This document shows positions 5,840 to 26,849 of a stretch of DNA of 30,059 nt, piece by piece. Each line of letters starts with the position of its first letter. The first letter of the stretch is position 1. The DNA comes from a virus. Position numbers and translations under genes: made by a program. The DNA lies in IMG/VR virus record IMGVR_UViG_3300044733_001596, positions 1-30,059 of that record, one strand, 5' to 3'. Under the pieces are notes generated by a model that saw only the letters and a program-made list of their open reading frames with translations, was not told the DNA's origin and made no database searches.

Positions 5840-7306
5840 ATGGCAAAAGTAATCACCAAAAATTCATTCACACCTGGTTCTGCTCCATCTGGTTTATCTG
5901 CTGGAGAGATCGCAGTCAATGTTGCCGACAAGAAAATATTTGTTGGTAATGCTGTTGGTGGTGTTGTAACTTTGCATGATCAAAATGCAGTTGTTACTTC
6001 GGTAAATGGTGCTACTGGTGCTGTTACAAATATTAATGCAGCAACTTCTACGATAACAAATACAAACAGTTCATCAACATTCTATCCTGCATTTGTTGGT
6101 GGAACAGGTAATACTGGATTTTTCATAGATGCTGTTTCTACACCATTAAGTTATGTTCCATCTTCTGGAACCGTTAGTGCAAGAGCATTTGATGCTACTT
6201 TTACAACAAATCAAGTTAAATTAGATGCTGCATTGGGTTCTATATTCAATACAGATGGAACGAATACAAATACAGTTGTAGCGTATGGTTTTGAATATAG
6301 TGGTGCTTCTCCATATTTAATTTCTTCGGGATATCAAAGAATATTTTTAGTCACACAAGGATTACAAATATCTGATGGTGATTATGATCAGATCTATGGT
6401 CCGTCAACTTGGGGTTATACATTCCCTGCTTCAAATGGAACTAGCGGACAGGCAATGCTCACAAATGGAAGTGGGCAACTTTATTGGGGTACAGTTTCAA
6501 GTAGTTCTTCATCTGGTGTATCGTCATTCAATGGACTAACAGGTGCAGTTGTCGGTGTCTCATCAGTAAATGGACTAACAGGTGCAGTTACGAATGTTGC
6601 CAGAACAAATGAAGGAAATACATTCAGCGTTCTTCAAGTTATGAATGCTGGTATAACATCCGCTAGTCTTTATGTGACAAGCGGAACAACACTTGGTACT
6701 TTATCTGCTACATCAACAAGCAATACTGTGGACATCATTGCCTCTACCGATGGTGCGGGTCTGCGAATTGCACAGGCAACATCTGGTGCTTCAAGCAGAA
6801 CTGGTGCTATAAGACTTGGAAGAGCGTCAACATCAACATTCAATACTTACCTTGAAAATGTTGCTGGTGTATTCACGATATACAATGGAGTTGGAAATAC
6901 TGGTACAAATCTATTTAATATTGATACCACCGATGCTCAATTTAATGTTCCTATTGCTGGAGCAACTTTTAGTGCTGCTGTTGTTTCTGACGGTGGATAT
7001 AGAATCACTTCAAATGCAATCAATGCCCTGACAGGAACGACATATTCTTTATTAACTACTGATAATGGTAAAATCATTACATGGAGCAATGCTGGTGGAG
7101 TTACCCTCACCGTTCCATCAGGTTTGCCTGTAGGATTCAATACTACTGTGATTCAGATAGGTGCTGGTGCAGTTGGAATCACTGGATCGGGAACAACACT
7201 TAATAGTTTTGAAGGTAAACGTAGGACTGCTGGTCAACACGCTGCGGTAAGTATTATATCTTACAGTAGCAATGTGTTCAATATTGCAGGAGGGTTGACC
7301 GCATGA
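5840..7306 (+). CDS. Tail fibre/receptor-binding type protein
   Basis: The 488-residue protein starts MAKVITKNSFTPGSAPSGLS, then AGEIAVNVADKKIFVG. This head is the same type as in the other fibre gene (SGxxPxxLxxGEIAVN) and is common in phage fibres. A VNGATGAVTNI motif near residue 53 recurs as two close copies, FNGLTGAVVG and VNGLTGAVTN, near residue 235. The remainder is Thr/Ser/Gly beta structure, with a C-terminal segment that could form a beta-solenoid tip. It overlaps the next gene by four bases (ATGA), so the two are probably co-translated. It is probably a virion fibre, with no obvious enzyme activity. Confidence 0.65.
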   Translation: MAKVITKNSFTPGSAPSGLSAGEIAVNVADKKIFVGNAVGGVVTLHDQNAVVTSVNGATGAVTNINAATSTITNTNSSSTFYPAFVGGTGNTGFFIDAVSTPLSYVPSSGTVSARAFDATFTTNQVKLDAALGSIFNTDGTNTNTVVAYGFEYSGASPYLISSGYQRIFLVTQGLQISDGDYDQIYGPSTWGYTFPASNGTSGQAMLTNGSGQLYWGTVSSSSSSGVSSFNGLTGAVVGVSSVNGLTGAVTNVARTNEGNTFSVLQVMNAGITSASLYVTSGTTLGTLSATSTSNTVDIIASTDGAGLRIAQATSGASSRTGAIRLGRASTSTFNTYLENVAGVFTIYNGVGNTGTNLFNIDTTDAQFNVPIAGATFSAAVVSDGGYRITSNAINALTGTTYSLLTTDNGKIITWSNAGGVTLTVPSGLPVGFNTTVIQIGAGAVGITGSGTTLNSFEGKRRTAGQHAAVSIISYSSNVFNIAGGLTA

Positions 7307-8511: not shown

Positions 8512-8908
8512 AGAACTATTTAAAATCCATGAACAAATATGCAATGAAGCATTAGAACTCATGAAAAAGAAAAACCATGACTATGCTGGTAAATCTGGAA
8601 ATGATCCATTTGCCAACTTTACTAGAGCAGAAGCCATGGGAATCACAACGACTGAAAAGGGAATGCTTGTCCGAATGCTCGACAAGATGAGTCGTTTATC
8701 TTCTTTTATGGATGCAAAAGAATTCAAAGTTGAAAATGAAAAATTAGAAGATACGATTAAGGATATGATAAATTACTCTATTCTTTTATATGCATACATG
8801 CAAGATAAGAATGAGTCACCACCATATACTGACATTGATTATATTGATATAGAGTGGAATAATAAGGGTGGAATTGTTCCTGATTCAGAAGATCCGAAGG
8901 TAGTATGA
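8501..8908 (+). CDS. DUF1599 (nucleotide-modification-associated) protein
   Basis: The 135-residue protein has the pattern 'KKNHDYAGK...DPFANF' near residues 23-39, then a helical MLDKMSRLSSF segment and a KDMINYSILLYAY segment. I recognise this as the DUF1599 family, found mostly in phages and often near nucleotide-metabolism genes. The family is helical and related in architecture to MazG-type nucleotide pyrophosphohydrolases, but its biochemistry is not settled. It overlaps dut at its start and the polymerase gene at its stop (ATGA), so it is part of a tight operon. A role in nucleotide-pool quality control is an inference from position. Confidence 0.7.
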   Translation: MRSEELFKIHEQICNEALELMKKKNHDYAGKSGNDPFANFTRAEAMGITTTEKGMLVRMLDKMSRLSSFMDAKEFKVENEKLEDTIKDMINYSILLYAYMQDKNESPPYTDIDYIDIEWNNKGGIVPDSEDPKVV

Positions 8909-10389
8909 GCTTTTATACAAATGTTTATTATACAGGATCTTCGATTCTGTTACGTCAAATCACAGATAAAAAAACAGAAAAGGCGAGAGTAAACTTCTCG
9001 CCATCTCTATTTTTGATTTCATCAAAAAATAGTAATTTTAAGACTGTAGACGGAAGATATGCAGATGAAATTACTTTTACAAATGTTCATGAAATGAACG
9101 ATTTTAAGAAAACATATGAAAATGTTGATAATTTTGAAATTCATGGAGATATTGACGCAAAGTATCAATATATTTCAAAGGAATTTGGAACTGAGTGTGA
9201 TTATAATTTCAATGATATCGGTGTGATGTATATCGATATGGAAACGACATGTGAAAATGGATTTCCATCTATTGAAAATCCAGAAGAAAAAATTATAGCA
9301 ATCACGTGTAGTTTTAAGGGAAAGACATATGTTTATTGTCTTGGTGATTTTACTAGAGATGATGCAAATATTATCATCAATGAATATCACGATGAACAAC
9401 AACTGTTGAGAGAATTTATTCATTTCATGCAAGATAAGCAACCAGAAATCATAACTGGATGGAATGTTAGATTTTTCGATATTCCATATCTTGTAAATAG
9501 ATGCAAAAAAATTCTTGATGAAAAAGAAGTCAAGAATCTTTCTCCATGGGGAATAATTAAAGATAGCATAGTCAACAGTCGTGGCGAAGATAAGGTCGTC
9601 TATGATATTGTTGGAATTTCTATTCTGGATTACTATGAACTTTATCGAACATTCACTTATGTAAATCAAGAATCATATAAACTTGATCATATTGCTTATG
9701 TTGAATTGGGTGAACGAAAGATTTCATATTCTGAATATGAAAATATGAGTGACTTTTATAAGAAGAATTTTCAGAAGTTTATTGAGTATAATATCAAAGA
9801 CGTTGAACTTGTTGAACGTCTTGAAGAAAAGCTTCGTCTTATTGAACTAGCTGTTGCATTGGCATATTCTGCTGGTGTAAATTATAATGATGTATTTTCT
9901 CAAGTCAGAACATGGGATGTTATCATTTATAATTATCTCAAGAAGAACGGCATCATTATTCCACCAAAAAAGAATAATGTAAAAGATGAACAATATGCAG
10001 GAGCATATGTAAAAGAGCCATTGGTAGGAATGCACGATTGGGTAGTCTCATATGACGTTAATTCCCTATATCCTTCTCTAATAATTCATTTTAATATTTC
10101 TCCAGAAACTTTACAAAACAAGAATTTCAAAGGAAAAATTAATATTCAAGATATCTTGAATAAGAACAAAAATTCAGAAACATTCAAATGCTTTGATGAG
10201 GCAAAGAAAGTAAATTGTTCTATTGCGGCAAATGGAACACTTTATACAAATAAAAAACGTGGGTTTCTTCCAGAACTCATGGATAAGATGTATAAAGAAC
10301 GCAAACAATTCAAAGATAAGATGATTGAAGCCAAGAAAGATCTAGAAGCAATTAATAACGAATTGAAGAAAAGGGGCTTGCAAGTCTAA
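8905..10389 (+). CDS. 43: DNA polymerase family B, N-terminal part (split gp43)
   Basis: This 494-residue piece carries the 3'-5' exonuclease and the first half of the polymerase palm. Visible motifs are Exo I with D111 and E113 (YIDMET), Exo II around N187 to D192 (GWNVRFFDIPYL), Exo III with Y295 and D299 (YNIKD), and polymerase motif A at D384 (DVNSLYPS). It stops at KKRGLQV in what should be the helical fingers. Motifs B and C are absent and sit in the gene at 18358. Together the two pieces make 865 residues, close to T4 gp43. The end looks like a designed stop rather than decay, because the frame is intact to the finger helix. Its start overlaps the DUF1599 stop (ATGA). Confidence 0.92.
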   Translation: MSFYTNVYYTGSSILLRQITDKKTEKARVNFSPSLFLISSKNSNFKTVDGRYADEITFTNVHEMNDFKKTYENVDNFEIHGDIDAKYQYISKEFGTECDYNFNDIGVMYIDMETTCENGFPSIENPEEKIIAITCSFKGKTYVYCLGDFTRDDANIIINEYHDEQQLLREFIHFMQDKQPEIITGWNVRFFDIPYLVNRCKKILDEKEVKNLSPWGIIKDSIVNSRGEDKVVYDIVGISILDYYELYRTFTYVNQESYKLDHIAYVELGERKISYSEYENMSDFYKKNFQKFIEYNIKDVELVERLEEKLRLIELAVALAYSAGVNYNDVFSQVRTWDVIIYNYLKKNGIIIPPKKNNVKDEQYAGAYVKEPLVGMHDWVVSYDVNSLYPSLIIHFNISPETLQNKNFKGKINIQDILNKNKNSETFKCFDEAKKVNCSIAANGTLYTNKKRGFLPELMDKMYKERKQFKDKMIEAKKDLEAINNELKKRGLQV

Positions 10390-10405
10390 ATAATCAGGAT
10401 ATAAT
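10378..10405 (+). promoter_or_regulatory. Early promoter, leaderless type
   Basis: TTGCAA (10378-10383) and TATAAT (10400-10405) are 16 bases apart. The -35 lies in the last codons of the polymerase fragment. The next ATG (10412) begins seven bases after the last T, the same geometry as upstream of dut and of the gene at 18156. Confidence 0.65.
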
Positions 10406-10411
10406 ACTCAC

Positions 10412-10948
10412 ATGAACGTGATTGATTACTATAAGAATTGGGAAGTAAACGCGATCATTGGTGATCTTGATACAAAGCGAAAGAACTTTACTGTACTTTG
10501 CAGCAATGTTGAGAATGATTTTAATATTGCAACAGCGATTCGTAATTCAAATGCATTTTTGGCAAATGAGGTATGGATCTATGGAAAGAAGCAATATGAT
10601 CGTCGTGGTACTGTAGGTACTCATAACTATACTCACTTCAAGCATGTTAAGACTATTTGTGATGTAATTGAAGAAGTTAAGGCTCTTGAGAAGCGAGTAG
10701 GAAGTGTTAGGATTATTGGTATCGATAATGTTCAGAATGCCATGCCAATCAATCATTATGCATGGCCAAAGCATGAACACATTCTCATGATTTTTGGCCA
10801 GGAAAAGGATGGAATTCCAAAACTTCTGCTTGACATGTGTGACGATATCCTGTATATTAAGCAGTATGGAAGTGTGAGAAGTTTGAATGTAGGAACAGCA
10901 AGTGGTATTGCAATGTATTCTTATTGTGAATACCTTGAGCGAGATTGA
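10412..10948 (+). CDS. SpoU/TrmH-family RNA 2'-O-methyltransferase
   Basis: The 178-residue protein shows the three SpoU motifs. Motif 1 is NIATAIRNSNAF with N38 and R44, motif 2 is MIFGQEKDGIP at about residues 127-136, and motif 3 is SLNVGTASGIAMY at residues 157-169. This is the knotted (SPOUT) fold that moves a methyl group from S-adenosylmethionine to a ribose 2'-OH in tRNA or rRNA. The N-terminal extension is short, so it is nearly a minimal catalytic domain, as in TrmL. The gene lies just 8 bases before a tRNA-Leu(UAA), a class of tRNA that TrmL methylates at the wobble position in E. coli. TrmH-type Gm18 modification is an alternative. It begins with a leaderless promoter. Confidence 0.82.
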   Translation: MNVIDYYKNWEVNAIIGDLDTKRKNFTVLCSNVENDFNIATAIRNSNAFLANEVWIYGKKQYDRRGTVGTHNYTHFKHVKTICDVIEEVKALEKRVGSVRIIGIDNVQNAMPINHYAWPKHEHILMIFGQEKDGIPKLLLDMCDDILYIKQYGSVRSLNVGTASGIAMYSYCEYLERD

Positions 10949-10956
10949 GATAATTG

Positions 10957-11040
10957 GGGATTGTGGCGGAATTGGTATACGCAACAGACTTAAAATCTGT
11001 CGGTCAATAGACCTTGTGGGTTCGAGTCCCACTAATCCCA
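10957..11040 (+). tRNA. trnL(uaa): tRNA-Leu (anticodon UAA)
   Basis: The 84-nt gene folds as a class II tRNA. The acceptor GGGATTG pairs with TAATCCC (last pair G-U). The anticodon stem ACAGA/TCTGT encloses loop CTTAAAA with anticodon TAA at 10991-10993, followed by a long variable arm and a T-arm GTGGG-TTCGAGT-CCCAC. The discriminator is A. CCA is not encoded. The neighbouring SpoU gene is just upstream. Confidence 0.93.
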
Positions 11041-11054
11041 TTAGAAAGTGAAAA

Positions 11055-11807
11055 ATGAAGCAAACACTTTTTATATCAGACCTTCACATAGCATCTAACA
11101 AATGTAAAGCAAAACTCTTATCTGAATTTATTAAAAAGGATGAGAGTTCTTGTCTTTATTTGGTGGGTGATATCATTGATATTTGGCGTTTCAATCAGGC
11201 ATTCAAGATGGATATTGAAACTCAGACCCATCATGTAGATTGTATTCGTCGCTTACTCAAGAAATCAAAACACGGAGAAGTCCATTATATTTGGGGAAAC
11301 CACGATGAGTTTATGCATCGTTTTTCTGAGTCAAAATCTTTCGGTGGAGTTCATCTGCACGAAAGATGTGACTATACAGCATCTGATGGAAGAAGATACC
11401 TAGTTCTTCACGGTCATCAGTTTGACTTGGTATGTAAATACAAAATCGGAACATTCTTATCTAAGATCGGTGATTTTGGATATGAATGGTTAATTGACAT
11501 CAATGAATGGTATAACTGGGTACGTAAAAAGATGGGTCTTCAATATTCTTCACTTTCCAAGTATGTGAAGGTGAAGTTTAAGAAGGCAACAATGTTCATT
11601 GGAAACTTTGAAAAGCATCTTTCAGAATACGCAGAGAAGCATGGATATGATGGAGTAATTTGCGGTCATATTCACGAACCAGCCGATAAGATGATCGGTA
11701 AGATTCATTATCTCAACTGCGGTTGTTGGACTGATGAAGCAAATCTCAACTATCTGATTGACAAAGGTGATGGAAGTGGTATAATTCTATGCAGACACGA
11801 AAAATGA
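11055..11807 (+). CDS. LpxH-like metallophosphoesterase
   Basis: The 250-residue protein has all motifs of the calcineurin-like phosphoesterase fold: D9-L-H11, G38-D-x-x-D42, G81-N-H-D84, H119-G-H121 and C203-G-H-I-H207. The set and size match the UDP-2,3-diacylglucosamine hydrolase (LpxH) branch and related bacterial proteins, which use two metal ions. LpxH makes lipid X in lipid A synthesis. Whether this phage protein has that substrate is not shown. A nucleotide or phospholipid substrate is possible. It follows tRNA-Leu and overlaps the next gene as ATGA. A cytosolic enzyme is expected, as no signal peptide is visible. Confidence 0.75.
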   Translation: MKQTLFISDLHIASNKCKAKLLSEFIKKDESSCLYLVGDIIDIWRFNQAFKMDIETQTHHVDCIRRLLKKSKHGEVHYIWGNHDEFMHRFSESKSFGGVHLHERCDYTASDGRRYLVLHGHQFDLVCKYKIGTFLSKIGDFGYEWLIDINEWYNWVRKKMGLQYSSLSKYVKVKFKKATMFIGNFEKHLSEYAEKHGYDGVICGHIHEPADKMIGKIHYLNCGCWTDEANLNYLIDKGDGSGIILCRHEK

Positions 11808-11941: not shown

Positions 11942-12117
11942 AAAAAGAAGAACTCATTGAAAACATTGAAATCCTCGCAGATAAATGTGAGGAGTTGATT
12001 AAGGAACGTGATCAAGCAAGACGACTTGTTTGTAAATATACAAAGAAAACTTATCACACGCTCAAGGAAACCGCAGAACTACGAGGATGGGACTGCTACA
12101 AGGAGAACACACAATGA
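11938..12117 (+). CDS. Small coiled-coil protein (59 aa)
   Basis: The frame begins and ends with ATGA overlaps with its neighbours. It encodes MKKEELIENIEILADKCEEL, then a charged helix containing IKERDQARRL and TLKETAEL; heptads of Leu/Ile suggest a short coiled coil. No domain is recognised. Its last codons contain the AAGGAG ribosome-binding site of the PEP-CTERM gene. Confidence 0.5.
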   Translation: MKKEELIENIEILADKCEELIKERDQARRLVCKYTKKTYHTLKETAELRGWDCYKENTQ

Positions 12118-12740
12118 AGACACTAATCGCAACAGCATTTATCGCAACGGCAGCACACGGAACTGGGACTCTCTGCACCTTTGAGAATCTTCCTGCTCCA
12201 ACAACTCCTAGTATGAGTTCCGCTACCACGGGATTCTATTGGGATTACCTCTCCTCATACGAGGGATTCCACTTCACAAGTTCATCTTCCCAAGGCAACT
12301 TCCAATGGGCATACTACGATCTCGTTGGTGGTGGGGGATACGCAGGATACGATGAGGGAATCATCGGGGATCGTGCTTTGTTCACCCCGTGGGGTTCTGA
12401 GCAGAACAAGAACTACCGCATTCGTCGTGATGATCTTTGGATTCTCAACAGCATTGAAGTCACATCGGTTTGGAATTCGACCGCAGTAGTTATAGAGGGA
12501 TACCGATACGGGGAGGGTGTGTTTACCTATACTACACAACTCACAGCAGCACAGCGGGTAAAACTAAACATCTCCTCTGGATATCCTGGTCCGCTTAACA
12601 ACATCACAGAGATCAAAATCTACACCAACACATTTAGTTCCCATCTCGCTATCGATAATCTCAACTACACGGTGGTTCCTGCACCATCGGCACTTGCCCT
12701 GCTTGCGATTGCTGGTGCGGTTGGAAGGCGGCGACGATGA
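12114..12740 (+). CDS. Secreted PEP-CTERM surface protein
   Basis: I place the start at 12114, inside the longer frame, because AAGGAG lies 8 bases before it and the ATGA overlap with the preceding gene fits. The 208-residue product starts with a signal-like MKTLIATAFIATAAHG. Its core is Gly/Ser/Tyr-rich beta sequence, including CTFENLPAP and IDNLNYT, in the style of bacterial PEP-CTERM surface proteins. The C-terminus is a VPAP motif, a hydrophobic helix (ALALLAIAGAV) and GRRRR. That tail is a sorting signal cut by exosortase, which a phage would borrow from its host. GC content is about 50%, against near 35% for neighbours, so recent acquisition is likely. A PEP-CTERM protein in a phage is unusual. 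Confidence 0.8.
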   Translation: MKTLIATAFIATAAHGTGTLCTFENLPAPTTPSMSSATTGFYWDYLSSYEGFHFTSSSSQGNFQWAYYDLVGGGGYAGYDEGIIGDRALFTPWGSEQNKNYRIRRDDLWILNSIEVTSVWNSTAVVIEGYRYGEGVFTYTTQLTAAQRVKLNISSGYPGPLNNITEIKIYTNTFSSHLAIDNLNYTVVPAPSALALLAIAGAVGRRRR

Positions 12741-12931: not shown

Positions 12932-13177
12932 ATGAAAAAAGATCTAAAGCAAGCAAAAAAGAATTGCGAATATATTGCAAAGATCAAAACAGAACGAGGC
13001 TGTTCTAAATGTGGTTATAATTTACACCCAGCCGCGTTAGAATTCCATCATCTACAAGACAAAAAGCATAATATCTCCCGTATAGCACGTTCAGGAGTAC
13101 CAGCAAATATTCTTGAAGAAGAAATTAAAAAATGCGTGGTTGTCTGTGCTAATTGTCATAGAATAGAACATTCATGA
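12932..13177 (+). CDS. Small HNH endonuclease
   Basis: The 81-residue protein has a zinc-binding pair C24/C27 (CSKC), the HH core at residues 39-40 (LEFHHL), and C72-x2-C75-H76 with H80 (CANCHRIEH). This matches the compact HNH nuclease domain, in which a histidine and metal cut DNA. Little beyond the domain is present, so substrate and target are unknown. Phage HNH genes are often mobile homing endonucleases, and this one lies inside the island that separates the two polymerase gene halves. That makes a role in island mobility possible. It overlaps the next frame at ATGA. Confidence 0.8.
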   Translation: MKKDLKQAKKNCEYIAKIKTERGCSKCGYNLHPAALEFHHLQDKKHNISRIARSGVPANILEEEIKKCVVVCANCHRIEHS

Positions 13178-13459: not shown

Positions 13460-13541
13460 GGATGATTACCCAAGCAGCAACGGGGGGAGACTGTAAATCT
13501 CCTGTCTTTAGACTTCGTAGGTGCAAGTCCTTCATCATCCA
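13460..13541 (+). tRNA. trnY(gua): tRNA-Tyr (anticodon GUA)
   Basis: The acceptor GGATGAT (13460-13466) pairs fully with ATCATCC (13534-13540). The anticodon stem GGAGA/TCTCC closes loop CTGTAAA, anticodon GTA at 13493-13495. A 14-nt variable arm with a GTC/GAC core makes it class II, as expected for bacterial tRNA-Tyr. The T-stem has one T-T mismatch (13518/13532) and its loop is TGCAAGT rather than TTCRANT, so it may be atypical. CCA is not encoded. Confidence 0.82.
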
Positions 13542-13556
13542 CTGATATTAGAATCG

Positions 13557-14912: not shown

Positions 14913-15932
14913 ATGAATTGGATTCACTCTGTATCAAAATCGTATTTAACAGAAGTCTTAAATATTAAGAAACCCAAAGTTTTATTTATTGGTAAGACCA
15001 GTATGATAAACGATATCTGGAAAATTAAACCAAACGATTTAGCACAATTGAAACAACTTTCTGATATTGATGTCATAACATTAGATTCAATGACAGAGGA
15101 GAAATTGGCAGAGAAGTGTGAAGGATATGATTATTTGATGTTAAATATGGATTTTCTTCCATTTCCCGATCCAAATAAGATGGATAAATTGACAGAGAAG
15201 TTCTACAACCATCCTGGTATCAAAAATCTCAAAGGTATCAATGTTGATATGACCGATGGTGATTTTTTTAGTCCACACTTAGCAAGACAAAAAGGAATAT
15301 TTCTCCAGACTAGTCCAAATGCGGTGACACGAAGTGTTGCTGAATCTGCTTTGTGTGAAATTATGCTTCATGCCAAGCAAAGACATAATTCTTATGCGAA
15401 TGATGAAAATTGCAATAAAACCCTGAATCTGCATGGAAAGATCGCAGGGATCATAGGCCAGGGTCATATAGGTTCGGCACTTGGAGAGATGTTGTCTGGA
15501 ATAGGAATGAAAGTATTGTTCAATGATATAAAATCATCTCAGTCAGAGAATACTTCACTTGAAAAAATATTCAGTCAGGCTGATGTCATTAGCATTCATA
15601 TTCCTGCTCTTTTACCAAGAACCACCAATAACAATATAGGATTTATTGATTCTAAATTATTAAACCTATGTAAAGGTACAATATTAGTCAATCTTGCAAC
15701 TGATATTATTGTGGATTCTGATTCAATAATATCGGCACTAAATACTGGAAAGATCGTTGGTTATTCGGTAGAACCTGGAAGAAAAGTTACAGAAAAACTA
15801 AGAAAATACAAGCAAGTTCATATTTCTCCATGCTCCTTTGATTCTGATGAGTCTAGAGCAAATGTAAAGAGAATATGGATTCAAAATATGATAACAGCAA
15901 TTCAAGGATATCCACAAAACATATGGAACTGA
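14913..15932 (+). CDS. D-2-hydroxyacid dehydrogenase relative lacking catalytic residues
   Basis: The 339-residue protein shows the fold of D-isomer-specific 2-hydroxyacid dehydrogenases. Residues 137-150 match the family 'AxRSVAExxLxxML' segment, the NAD-binding glycines are G182, G184 and G187 (GQGHIG), and ADVISIHIP follows near residue 223. The usual catalytic arginine (V-N-x-A-R-G) is replaced by T263 (VNLATD) and the usual histidine (TPHIG) by C307 (SPCSF), while Glu is kept (E287, VEPG). Loss of Arg and His suggests it no longer reduces hydroxyacids; it may bind NAD or another ligand, or act as a scaffold. It is preceded by a late promoter. The family is rare in phages. Confidence 0.72.
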   Translation: MNWIHSVSKSYLTEVLNIKKPKVLFIGKTSMINDIWKIKPNDLAQLKQLSDIDVITLDSMTEEKLAEKCEGYDYLMLNMDFLPFPDPNKMDKLTEKFYNHPGIKNLKGINVDMTDGDFFSPHLARQKGIFLQTSPNAVTRSVAESALCEIMLHAKQRHNSYANDENCNKTLNLHGKIAGIIGQGHIGSALGEMLSGIGMKVLFNDIKSSQSENTSLEKIFSQADVISIHIPALLPRTTNNNIGFIDSKLLNLCKGTILVNLATDIIVDSDSIISALNTGKIVGYSVEPGRKVTEKLRKYKQVHISPCSFDSDESRANVKRIWIQNMITAIQGYPQNIWN

Positions 15933-17063: not shown

Positions 17064-18107
17064 ATGAGTAAAGTGGCACTGATTACTGGAATTTGTGGAC
17101 AGGATGGATCATATCTAAGTCAATTATTGATATCCAAGGGATATGAGGTTCATGGTATTATTCGAAGATCTTCTTCTTTTAATACTGGAAGAATCGATCA
17201 TCTTATAAATGATCCAGAAATTTATAATAAAAAATTATTTTTACATTTTGGTGATTTGACAGACTTCAATAGTCTTCAAAAAATTATAACAAAATATTCT
17301 CCAGATGAAATTTATAATCTTGGTGCTCAAAGCCATGTTAAAGTTTCATTCGATATGCCAGTATTTACTGGAGAGACAACTGGAATCGGAACATTAAATC
17401 TTTTAGAAGCCATACGAACATTTGAAGAACAAACTGGTAAAAAGATTCGATATTATCAGGCCAGCAGTTCGGAGATGTATGGTAAGGTTCAAGAAGTTCC
17501 TCAAAAAGAAACAACACCGTTTTATCCTCGTTCACCGTATGGATGTGCAAAAGCTTATGCACATTATCTCACTGTGAATTATCGTGAAAGTTATGATCTA
17601 CATGCTTCATGTGGAATTTTGTTTAACCACGAAAGTCCGCGTAGAGGAGAAACATTCGTAACAAGAAAAATCACAAGAGCAGTTGGTAGAATTTATCAAG
17701 GATTACAAAAGAAACTATATCTTGGTAATTTAGATGCATATCGTGATTGGGGATTTGCTGGAGATTATGTTGAAGCCATGTGGCTGATGCTACAGCAAGA
17801 TAAACCAGATGATTATGTTGTTGCAACTGGTAAGATGATTACCGTAAGAGAATTCTGTCAAAAAGCTTTTGCAAGATATAGTATGAATTATTTGGATTAT
17901 GTTGAAGTTGATGAAAAATATTATCGTCCAGCAGAAGTAGATCAATTATTGGGAGATTCAACTAAAGCTAAAAGTAAATTAGCTTGGACACCAAAGGTTA
18001 ATATCAATGAATTGATTGACATGATGACAGATCATGATTTTGAACTTGCCAGAAAAGAACGAATCATAGAAATATATGATAAAAAATTAAATCCAACTGG
18101 CCCATGA
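17064..18107 (+). CDS. gmd: GDP-mannose 4,6-dehydratase
   Basis: The enzyme converts GDP-D-mannose to GDP-4-keto-6-deoxymannose, the first step toward fucose, rhamnose-like and perosamine sugars in surface polysaccharides. Visible marks of the extended short-chain dehydrogenase fold are the NADP-binding G9-x2-G12-x2-G15 (GICGQDG), the '[14 protein letters not shown]' substrate segment, a SSSEMYG site at residues 134-140 and Y159-x3-K163 (YGCAK). Its 347 residues match the family. It stands alone, with no GDP-fucose synthase or glycosyltransferase in the window, so its product probably feeds host enzymes or other phage genes. It resembles metabolic genes carried by some marine phages. Confidence 0.92.
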
Positions 18108-18155: not shown

Positions 18156-18383
18156 ATGAAATATGGTCTGCATTTTACCAATACCTCGAAAGAAGAAGAT
18201 TGGCTCAGGGAATCAGATAAGTCTATATGTATTTGGAATAGTGCTGATGAAGCAGATGATTGGCGTAAGAAACATACAGTAAATCCTAAGATTTATGATG
18301 TTAAAAAAGTAACGCCAAAAATAATTAAAGAAGATCAAGAAAAATATGGAAGTAACAATGAACGATCTTTCAAAATTGAGTGA
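18156..18383 (+). CDS. Small hypothetical protein, operon leader gene
   Basis: The 75-residue protein starts MKYGLHFTNTSKEEDWLRES and continues with acidic and aromatic residues (WNSADEADDWRKKHTVNPK). No domain is recognised. Its end overlaps the polymerase fragment by 26 bases. As the first gene of the operon on a leaderless transcript, it would be translated from the 5' end and could couple translation to the polymerase fragment behind it. Confidence 0.6.
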   Translation: MKYGLHFTNTSKEEDWLRESDKSICIWNSADEADDWRKKHTVNPKIYDVKKVTPKIIKEDQEKYGSNNERSFKIE

Positions 18384-19473
18384 TAATGAATTGTTATCAT
18401 TGAAGCATAAAACAGAATTAGATATTTCAAAGTATCATAATTTTCAGTTAGTCCGTAAAATTCAATTGAATTCAGCTTACGGTGCTATTGGTAATGCGTA
18501 TTTTAGATTCTATAATACTGATTTGGCCGAGGCAATCACATTGTCAGGCCAATTGTCTATTCAATGGATTGGAAATAGATTAAATGAATTAATTAATAAA
18601 GTAACTAATTCAGATAATAAGGATTTTATCATTGCATCAGACACAGATTCAATTTATCTTAAAATTGATGATGTCGTAAATCAATATGCATCTAATAAAT
18701 CAATTATAGAAAAAATTGATTATATTGATTCATCATCTAAAAATATCATTTTGCCATATATTGAAAAGCAGTTCGACAGTCTAGCAAATATGATGAATGC
18801 ATTTGAAAATAGAATTGTTATGGCAAGAGAAGTTATTGCAGACAAGGGTGTATGGACTGCAAAAAAGAGATATATGTTAAATGTCTGGGATTCAGAAGGC
18901 GTTCGTTATAGTCAACCTAAACAAAAAATCATGGGAATTGAAACTTCACGATCATCTACTCCAGAGGTTGTTCGTAAAGAATTAAAGAATGCCATCAGCA
19001 TTATTCTCAACAAAGATGAAAATGAATTGATTGACTTTGTTGCAAAATTCAAATCTAAATTCATGAAAATGAGTGTAGAGGAAATTTCTTTTCCACGTAG
19101 TGTAAATGGACTTGATAAGTATAGAGATTCTTCTCAAATTTATAAATTGAAGACTCCTATTCAGGTAAAGGCTGCTTTGTTGTATAATCATTACATCAAG
19201 GAAATGAAATTGAGTATGAAATATACTAAAATTTCAGAAGGTGAAAAGATTAAATTTGTATATCTTAAAAAGCCCAATCCATTGGCAGGAACACAGGGAG
19301 AAGATTGTGTAATTGGATTCCCGAATAAAATGCCAAAAGAGTTTGATCTTGACAAATTTATTGATCGTGAAAAACAATTTGAAAAAGCATTTCTTGATCC
19401 ACTGATAAAGATTCTAGATATCATTGGATGGAAGGCAGAAAAAACAAACACTCTAGAATCACTTTTTATATGA
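18358..19473 (+). CDS. 43: DNA polymerase family B, C-terminal part (split gp43)
   Basis: This 371-residue piece carries polymerase motif B with K34, N38, S39 and Y41 (KIQLNSAYG) and motif C with D95 and D97 (SDTDSIY), then the thumb. It joins the N-terminal part at 8905, which holds motif A and the exonuclease. A GGAAG ribosome-binding site lies five bases before ATG 18358; a further in-frame ATG at 18346 would add four residues. The C-terminal NTLESLFI resembles a sliding-clamp-binding tail as in T4 gp43. The N-terminal helix (MNDLSKLSDNELLSLKHKTE) is an extra finger segment that would meet the KKRGLQV end of the other piece. I expect the two chains to assemble into one enzyme. Confidence 0.92.
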   Translation: MNDLSKLSDNELLSLKHKTELDISKYHNFQLVRKIQLNSAYGAIGNAYFRFYNTDLAEAITLSGQLSIQWIGNRLNELINKVTNSDNKDFIIASDTDSIYLKIDDVVNQYASNKSIIEKIDYIDSSSKNIILPYIEKQFDSLANMMNAFENRIVMAREVIADKGVWTAKKRYMLNVWDSEGVRYSQPKQKIMGIETSRSSTPEVVRKELKNAISIILNKDENELIDFVAKFKSKFMKMSVEEISFPRSVNGLDKYRDSSQIYKLKTPIQVKAALLYNHYIKEMKLSMKYTKISEGEKIKFVYLKKPNPLAGTQGEDCVIGFPNKMPKEFDLDKFIDREKQFEKAFLDPLIKILDIIGWKAEKTNTLESLFI

Positions 19474-25805: not shown

Positions 25806-26849
25806 ATGGCACTACTAAAATACTACAACTCAAAAATACATGATCTTTATCTTTATGATCGTTTAGCAACCACAACTCAGTCATCTATTCCTGTTGGATA
25901 TAATCCAGATTGCCAATCATATGGAATTGCTGATTTTTCTGGTTGTTGTGCCAGAAATCGACATTTTTGTACTTTAATTGGAATTACATATGGTGTTCAA
26001 TTTGATCGTGAAAATGTTAATTTTTGGAATTGTTGTGCATACAGAGGAGTTCTTATCTCTCCAAAACATATGATTATTTGTGAACATTTCCGTGGACCAA
26101 GACCAGATCCAAATGATAATACATCTGGAATTGTTCTTCTTGGTAAATCTGGTATTCGTCATACTGTTAAAGTTGTTGCTGTAACTTTAAGTATAGGTTC
26201 CGACCAAACACTACTTGAGTTTGATCAACCAGTTCCAGAAGGAGAATTTTATATTTACAATAAGATCGCTGATCCTGCTTATGTTCCTAATGGAACACAT
26301 ATATGGGTTCAAGATTCTAATGGAAAAATTTATAAAAGAATTTTCAAAAAGGCAATATTTGTTGATGGAAAATTAACAGCGTGGCAAAGTGATCCATGTA
26401 TTGATGGTATAAATGATGGTCCTCATACAAGTGGAGATCCTGCAATATTCGTCGGTGATTCTGGTTCTCCCGCATTTGTTGTTAATTCAGAAGGAGAAAC
26501 ACTTCTATTAGGTTTAATGTATGGTGGACCTAATTTCCCACAAAAGACAATTGATAATATTAATGCAAAACTAAATCCACACGGATATAGTGTCAGTTTA
26601 GAAAAAATGACAGCACTTCCACAGGATTTAAATCAAGATGGAAAAATAGACAGTGTAGATTTGAGTATCTTTATGTCTAATTGGGAAGTAAATGGTGAAA
26701 TCGCTGATTTTAACAAAGATGGAAAAGTTGATGCTGAAGATATGTCAGAACTTCTTTCTAAGTGGGGTAGTTATGATTTATCTTCTAGTGCAGTTCATTA
26801 TACTACTACGGTTACTCCAATAGATCCAAATAATACTAAAAGAATCTGA
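25806..26849 (+). CDS. Trypsin-like serine protease with C-terminal dockerin
   Basis: The 347-residue protein has a chymotrypsin-type triad: H94 (ICEHF) after LISPKHM, D133 (SDQTLLEF) and S219 in GDSGSP. Residues 274-320 are a tandem pair of EF-hand-like calcium loops, DLNQDGKIDSVDL and DFNKDGKVDAEDM, each followed by a short helix, which is the layout of a type I dockerin. No signal peptide is visible. The N-terminus (MALLKYYNSKIHDLYLYDRL) is unlike protease prodomains and may attach the protein to the particle. A late promoter implies virion or lysis timing. Such dockerins are common in Planctomycetota proteins and rare in phages. Target and export route are unknown. Confidence 0.8.
   Translation: MALLKYYNSKIHDLYLYDRLATTTQSSIPVGYNPDCQSYGIADFSGCCARNRHFCTLIGITYGVQFDRENVNFWNCCAYRGVLISPKHMIICEHFRGPRPDPNDNTSGIVLLGKSGIRHTVKVVAVTLSIGSDQTLLEFDQPVPEGEFYIYNKIADPAYVPNGTHIWVQDSNGKIYKRIFKKAIFVDGKLTAWQSDPCIDGINDGPHTSGDPAIFVGDSGSPAFVVNSEGETLLLGLMYGGPNFPQKTIDNINAKLNPHGYSVSLEKMTALPQDLNQDGKIDSVDLSIFMSNWEVNGEIADFNKDGKVDAEDMSELLSKWGSYDLSSSAVHYTTTVTPIDPNNTKRI

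Follow-up and report, generated by a model that had tools for sequence, protein, structure and literature searches.

A SpoU-family gene and tRNA genes within a split DNA polymerase gene

The window, the whole 30,059-base stretch analyzed here, is an IMG/VR phage fragment carrying the T4-like genes UvsX, helicase, primase and family-B DNA polymerase. Its UvsX is nearest, among isolates, to those of Methylophilales phage Melnitz and Pelagibacter phage HTVC008M (58–60%). The carriers of such a SpoU-type gene beside their own tRNA genes form an aquatic T4-like phage group. The features of the locus are as follows:

8905..10389, + strand: N-terminal half of a split family-B DNA polymerase (phrog_262, phrog_2062; the outgroup gene is undivided)
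10378..10405, + strand: sigma-70-like promoter-like site, TTGCAA-16-TATAAT (scan; equivalent site in relatives)
10412..10948, + strand: predicted SpoU/SPOUT-family RNA ribose 2′-O-methyltransferase, 178 aa (Pfam, profiles, fold, tree)
10957..11040, + strand: tRNA-Leu(UAA), 84 nt, long variable arm, G18 and G19 present (ARAGORN; Rfam 59.7 bits)
11055..11807, + strand: LpxH-like metallophosphoesterase, exchanged between phages together with the tRNA-Leu or beside it (profile matches)
12932..13177, + strand: HNH endonuclease of the tRNA region (phrog_2255, phrog_3106)
13460..13542, + strand: tRNA-Tyr(GUA), D-loop AAGCAGCAA without the usual G18 (ARAGORN/Rfam)
18346..19473, + strand: C-terminal half of the split DNA polymerase (phrog_262, phrog_1918)

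The SpoU gene and the tRNAs lie inside the split DNA polymerase gene. As the original prediction had it, the SpoU gene ends just short of a tRNA-Leu(UAA): coordinates, ARAGORN, Rfam and Pfam agree, and exactly 8 bases (10949–10956) separate the two. The same polymerase split also holds a phosphoglycerate-dehydrogenase-like gene (14913–15932) and a GDP-mannose 4,6-dehydratase gene (17064–18107). A PEP-CTERM-like protein is encoded at 12087–12740, at 49% GC versus 35% for the window, and the protein encoded at 25806–26849 weakly matches a GC-type dockerin (25.2 of 29 bits); together these hint at a planctomycete-like host.

The promoter-like site overlaps the last bases of the gene for the N-terminal polymerase half and stops 6 bases before the SpoU start codon. 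The original prediction placed the gene and the tRNA under one promoter. Such sites are not enriched in the window (3 versus 4.0 in shuffles), but an equivalent site occupies the same place in most relatives inspected (L009, L007, L008, L022, L050, L091, L072), across diverged sequence, and the site is therefore probably real. SpoU and the following tRNA would be co-transcribed from it. A second promoter-like match inside the SpoU gene (10830–10858) is a candidate that could serve the tRNA alone. In the window (10400–10414) and in relatives, a TATAAT-like box lies very near the SpoU start, overlapping an upstream ATG in L050; given the position of this box, the SpoU transcript may be leaderless or nearly so.

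Comparison of related loci (including L138–L184) reveals one DNA polymerase gene in outgroups and a split gene in the window's lineage; gene 43 of other T4-like phages also bears insertions (PMC2993671). In the window's family, the polymerase is split by SpoU, tRNAs and further genes, and in L144 by an endonuclease-like ORF. In L132 and L141, the two halves lie 334 and 379 nt apart, with only a small ORF and a UAA-anticodon tRNA between them, the tRNA having a promoter-like site to itself; either the tRNA arrived first or SpoU was lost. Among 62 polymerase-anchored loci with enough sequence, SpoU occurs together with a tRNA in 21 and alone in none, while 3 hold a tRNA alone and 38 neither (Fisher p 1e-13 for co-occurrence, uncorrected for kinship). 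Two long contigs (118 and 70 kb) from related phages with an undivided polymerase contain neither SpoU nor tRNA.

The SpoU gene accompanies tRNA clusters in related phages

Two scans yielded 360 viral contigs with relatives, the best 80 of which were examined; a direct search contributed 7 more, and anchoring on the polymerase gave others. Dereplication at 95% identity left 38 relatives. Among these dereplicated relatives, a tRNA lies within 700 nt downstream of SpoU in 37 of 38 (random mean 12.0) and within 300 nt in 33 of 38 (random mean 6.1). With random placement in the same stretches, 0 random sets reached the counts of 33 or 37. Related phages are non-independent samples, and at the level of groups at 75% identity, later loci included, a tRNA follows within 700 nt in 15 of 17. 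The original prediction had suggested looking for homologous pairs in other phages, and SpoU beside tRNAs does recur widely. The two exceptional groups are L104/L105, in which the tRNA lies 246 nt upstream of SpoU, and L022, in which 12 tRNAs lie about 7 kb away on the same contig.

The identity of the neighboring tRNA is far less constant. The first downstream tRNA (n = 37) is Gln(UUG) in 17 cases, Leu(CAA) in 8, Glu(UUC) in 8, Leu(UAA) in 3 and Gln(CUG) in 1, and in one further group (L123, L125, L127) it is Asp(GUC), which led us to reject the rule that the first neighbor is always Leu, Gln or Glu. The settings differ as well, comprising the polymerase split (SpoU-Gln-Leu-Leu or SpoU-Leu-Gln-Leu-Gly-Asn-Pro) and large tRNA arrays elsewhere. 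In view of this mix of first downstream tRNAs, the SpoU gene is tied to phage tRNA clusters rather than to Leu(UAA). T4-like phages in general often carry Gln and Leu(UAA) tRNAs, and the set of neighboring tRNAs may therefore reflect ancestry.

Apparent tRNA turnover around the SpoU gene

The tRNAs appear to turn over while the SpoU enzyme stays. In L006, a phage nearly identical to that of the window and with an identical SpoU protein, a different tRNA-Leu(UAA) (6546–6628) occupies the same place as the window's 10957–11040: the anticodon stem is fully re-paired, C32 is changed to U and the variable arm differs. A 1.5-kb stretch of the window with SpoU, the tRNA-Leu and the LpxH-like gene has matches of about 88% in L078 and L089, where the LpxH-like protein is 99% identical and SpoU 63%. 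More broadly, LpxH-like proteins are 95–99% identical between phages whose SpoU proteins are only 63–68% identical. These values mark the LpxH-like gene as a recently exchanged module; the tRNA-Leu and the gene following it were exchanged between phages separately from SpoU. In L078/L089, the bases preceding the tRNA-Leu resemble the 3′ end of the L008 tRNA-Gln, and the window's lineage therefore probably lost a Gln tRNA likewise.

The original prediction saw here a dedicated tRNA-Leu(UAA) cassette with a TrmL enzyme, an explanation that now seems very improbable. It is prompted by the window's arrangement itself, by the occurrence of Leu(UAA) within the same cluster in many relatives, and by an anticodon loop that has the A36-A37-A38 required by TrmL. 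Yet the usual first tRNA is Gln(UUG), with Leu(CAA), Glu(UUC) and Asp(GUC) as others, so that specificity for Leu(UAA) is unsupported; L132 and L141 have a tRNA-Leu(UAA) at the same polymerase split without SpoU, and the score against the TrmL family model is low (below). Nor does transfer as one mobile unit find support, since the Leu tRNA and the next gene were exchanged without SpoU.

Several tRNAs in this set depart from the usual form. Short tRNAs of 73–78 nt, without the long variable arm of bacterial tRNA-Leu, account for 15 of 36 distinct UAA and 17 of 34 distinct CAA tRNAs of related loci, and these are Leu by anticodon only. In the window's tRNA-Tyr(GUA), A replaces the near-universal G18, and GG is absent in 6 of 13 distinct phage tRNA-Tyr. 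We considered the distance from A14 to G18 as a TrmH criterion and rejected it; Gln tRNAs mostly lack nucleotide 17, as do Val, Thr and Gly tRNAs. L009 additionally carries a tmRNA-like gene (11216–11529) with the tag AAPMRMAA (ARAGORN).

Family and predicted fold of the SpoU protein

The SpoU protein scores 83.7 bits against Pfam SpoU_methylase (PF00588), above the curated threshold of 29.7, and has no match in PHROG. In an alignment of 35 phage members, N38, R44, E131, S157 and N159 are invariant and correspond to the catalytic set of SPOUT 2′-O-methyltransferases, in which the motif-1 arginine is essential (PMC11640301). With these catalytic residues invariant, the family looks active. A Foldseek search with the AlphaFold model (pLDDT 87.9) matches many SPOUT enzymes with a probability of 1.00 and a TM of about 0.7, and by this overall match the protein is predicted to have the knotted α/β SPOUT fold. 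In the model, about 22 residues with helices at residues 3–6 and 12–21 precede the SPOUT core, and the C-terminus coincides with the last SPOUT helix. The enzyme had been called minimal, which overlooks these N-terminal residues: TrmL lacks them, structural alignments to TrmL start at model residue 20–25, and the phage protein is not a SPOUT domain free of appended parts as TrmL is.

A maximum-likelihood tree unites the phage proteins with two from Rhodococcus phages, one from a huge phage and the actinobacterial homologues in a single clade (support 99/97), apart from TrmH (96/96), RlmB and TrmL; deep forks of this tree are weak, and the branches leading to TARBP1 and TrmJ are long. The window's protein also scores far below the cut-offs of the NCBIfam TrmH model NF008295 (46.9 bits versus 227), the TrmL model TIGR00185 (29.5 versus 190.6) and the RlmB model TIGR00186 (50.2 versus 160.15), and the same three models stay well below their cut-offs across the 35 members. 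On both counts, the phage SpoU proteins and their actinobacterial homologues appear to constitute a separate, uncharacterised SPOUT subfamily. Two scans of genome contigs with short peptide patterns found no cellular relatives, which does not in itself show absence, whereas a plasmid collection does contain actinobacterial relatives. A viral scan queried with the distant LR756508 protein gave no match.

Among characterised enzymes, those making Gm18 are closest. A profile of the members finds in the PDB A. aeolicus TrmH (3.7e-18), E. coli TrmH (1e-15), human TARBP1 (2.4e-14) and T. thermophilus TrmH (1e-12), followed by AviRb and RlmB, with the best TrmL at 4.8e-7 and TrmJ at 0.0012 or worse; ranks 1–5 of the Foldseek search are the same Gm18 enzymes. 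VIA-align Z-scores were rejected as a subfamily discriminator, as they range from 15.8 to 20.1 over 50 entries without separation. The likeness to TrmH extends to an N-terminal helix before the SPOUT core, a GS/THxW/Y-like motif and the catalytic N, R, E and S-N. However, the phage protein is 20–24% identical to TrmH and falls outside the TrmH clade; of the two TrmH extensions (21 residues N-terminal and 18 C-terminal; PMC9508554), and hence of the NTD-SPOUT-CTD architecture, it has the N-terminal part only. The methyltransferase domain of TARBP1/Trm3, the eukaryotic Gm18 enzyme, is the third-best profile match and the first in a single-sequence search, and shares the motif 3 [VI]RSLNV with the phage protein. 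In contrast, TARBP1 has a long N-terminal region (PMC5372735), and its long branch leaves its grouping with the phage clade unresolved in the tree.

The same comparisons bear on whether the target is instead rRNA or host RNA, with the tRNA neighborhood being merely where mobile genes collect. The RlmB model scores slightly above that for TrmH, the rRNA enzyme AviRb comes first in VIA-align (Z 20.1, with TARBP1 and TrmH no more than about 1 behind), and the locus lies among HNH genes and exchangeable modules. We nevertheless judge this improbable, as the rRNA-binding N-terminal domain of RlmB is absent from the 178 aa, SpoU retains its tRNA neighbors in several genomic settings besides the polymerase split, and it is missing from tRNA-poor related phages.

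Candidate target sites

The explanation that we favor, and consider likely, is that the SpoU gene product is a phage tRNA ribose 2′-O-methyltransferase serving the phage tRNA cluster, with the site left open. The protein would form a dimer, as its relatives do, and would use SAM to methylate one ribose on several phage tRNAs, not on Leu(UAA) alone; host tRNAs are perhaps also matured by it.

Of the single sites, we rank G18 of the D-loop first, an assignment that we hold tentatively and that falls somewhat short of an even chance. It is favored by the profile and fold rankings, by the N-terminal helix and by the Leu and Gln neighbors (first downstream tRNA in 29 of 37), which fit the E. coli TrmH substrates, namely Leu, Ser, Tyr and Gln tRNAs (PMC11640301). 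Against G18 stand a first tRNA outside that set, Glu(UUC) in 8 of 37 and Asp(GUC) in one group, the window's own tRNA-Tyr without G18, and the missing TrmH C-terminal extension. A further point against it is that S. albidoflavus, the one species mapped in the phylum with the nearest cellular homologues found, has no Gm18 (PMC12772374). The original prediction was to fall if the nearest homologues acted on G18; this is partly the case, since the best characterised relatives are Gm18 enzymes, while wobble methylation is retained as an alternative.

That alternative, which we regard as unlikely but as the main rival, is a methyltransferase for the ribose of nucleotide 34 in the split-box tRNAs Leu(UAA), Leu(CAA), Gln(UUG) and Glu(UUC), a functional counterpart of TrmL but not its orthologue. 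It owes its standing to S. albidoflavus, in which Gln(UUG), Glu(UUC) and Lys(UUU) carry Um34 or its derivatives with no enzyme assigned to them, and in which Gm18 is absent (PMC12772374): these orphan marks fit the phage neighbors well. In the first set, each of the 37 first downstream tRNAs is a Leu(UUR), Gln or Glu tRNA, the closest cellular homologues found are actinobacterial, and the want of a long variable arm in half of the Leu-anticodon tRNAs would be immaterial to an enzyme of the anticodon arm. On the other hand, the Asp(GUC) neighbor exists, AT-rich phages in any case often have U34 tRNAs, TrmL gives weaker profile and fold matches than the Gm18 enzymes, and the tree sets TrmL and TrmJ apart (weak support, 67/82).

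TrmL/YibK itself (Cm34/Um34) resembles the phage protein in its SPOUT fold, small size and 2′-O chemistry, and its substrates Leu(UAA) and Leu(CAA) are also found near the phage gene. The comparison drawn by the original prediction is nonetheless weak, with about 15% identity by structure alignment besides the low model score. TrmL modifies nucleotide 34 of Leu(UAA)/Leu(CAA) bearing i6A37 and recognizes A35 and A36-A37-A38 (PMC9508554); the latter triplet is present in the anticodon loops of 35 of 36 phage Leu(UAA) tRNAs, but tRNA-Gln, including the usual neighbor Gln(UUG), is without the recognized bases.

Position 32, the site of TrmJ, has a slim chance. A Streptomyces SPOUT protein of the TrmH family (COG0566) makes Um32/Cm32, and E. 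coli TrmJ acts on Gln(UUG) (PMC12772374); the phage tRNAs have C or U at this position. The Streptomyces case also shows that subfamily membership does not reveal the site. However, similarity to TrmJ is weak (0.0012 or worse, as above), and the C-terminal extension that follows the SPOUT domain in TrmJ is absent from the phage protein.

Benefit to the phage and comparison with known systems

Whichever ribose is methylated, the likely benefit would be a phage tRNA pool that is more stable or decodes better. The window favors AT-rich codons, with UUA and UUG making up 26% and 21% of Leu codons and CAA 67% of Gln codons; this suits the carried tRNAs but leaves the methyltransferase unexplained. 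Escape from host anticodon nucleases, raised by the original prediction, would be another candidate benefit. Phage tRNAs are known to stand in for those that host defences cleave (PMC10264068, PMC11555353), and Gm18 has long been thought to prolong tRNA life (PMC5372735). A speculative extension, which we consider doubtful, is that this SPOUT subfamily is a tRNA-cluster companion supplying a 2′-O-methyl that the host may not make, which would keep phage tRNAs working when defences degrade tRNA. The debate on why phages carry tRNAs has set codon use against replacement of cleaved tRNAs; that the enzyme travels with tRNA clusters and is absent from tRNA-poor relatives suggests that tRNA modification itself is under selection.

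In the open-licence literature, including that on huge-phage translation genes, we found no description of the linkage between SpoU and tRNA clusters or of a SPOUT subfamily bound to such clusters in phages. What is known is that huge phages carry, besides tRNAs and tRNA synthetases, QueC/D/F and further genes for tRNA modification (PMC7162821), a similar case of phage-borne tRNA maturation beside phage tRNAs. The nearest named relatives are the Arthrobacter and Nocardia proteins annotated as RNA methyltransferase and those of the Rhodococcus phages NiceHouse (gp33) and Trina, annotated as tRNA-methyltransferase. These fall in the same subfamily, are 31–41% identical to the phage SpoU and share with it the N-terminal RNxxDxYxYW and (D/N)RRGxV/M motifs, but their genes have no adjoining tRNA genes in the stretches examined. 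The distant homologues of LR756508, NiceHouse and Trina likewise do not lie beside tRNAs, and their genomes hold 28, 35 and 29 tRNAs, respectively. For the actinobacterial members, the one mapped species of the phylum is without Gm18 but has orphan Um34 marks, and solving the phage enzyme could identify theirs.
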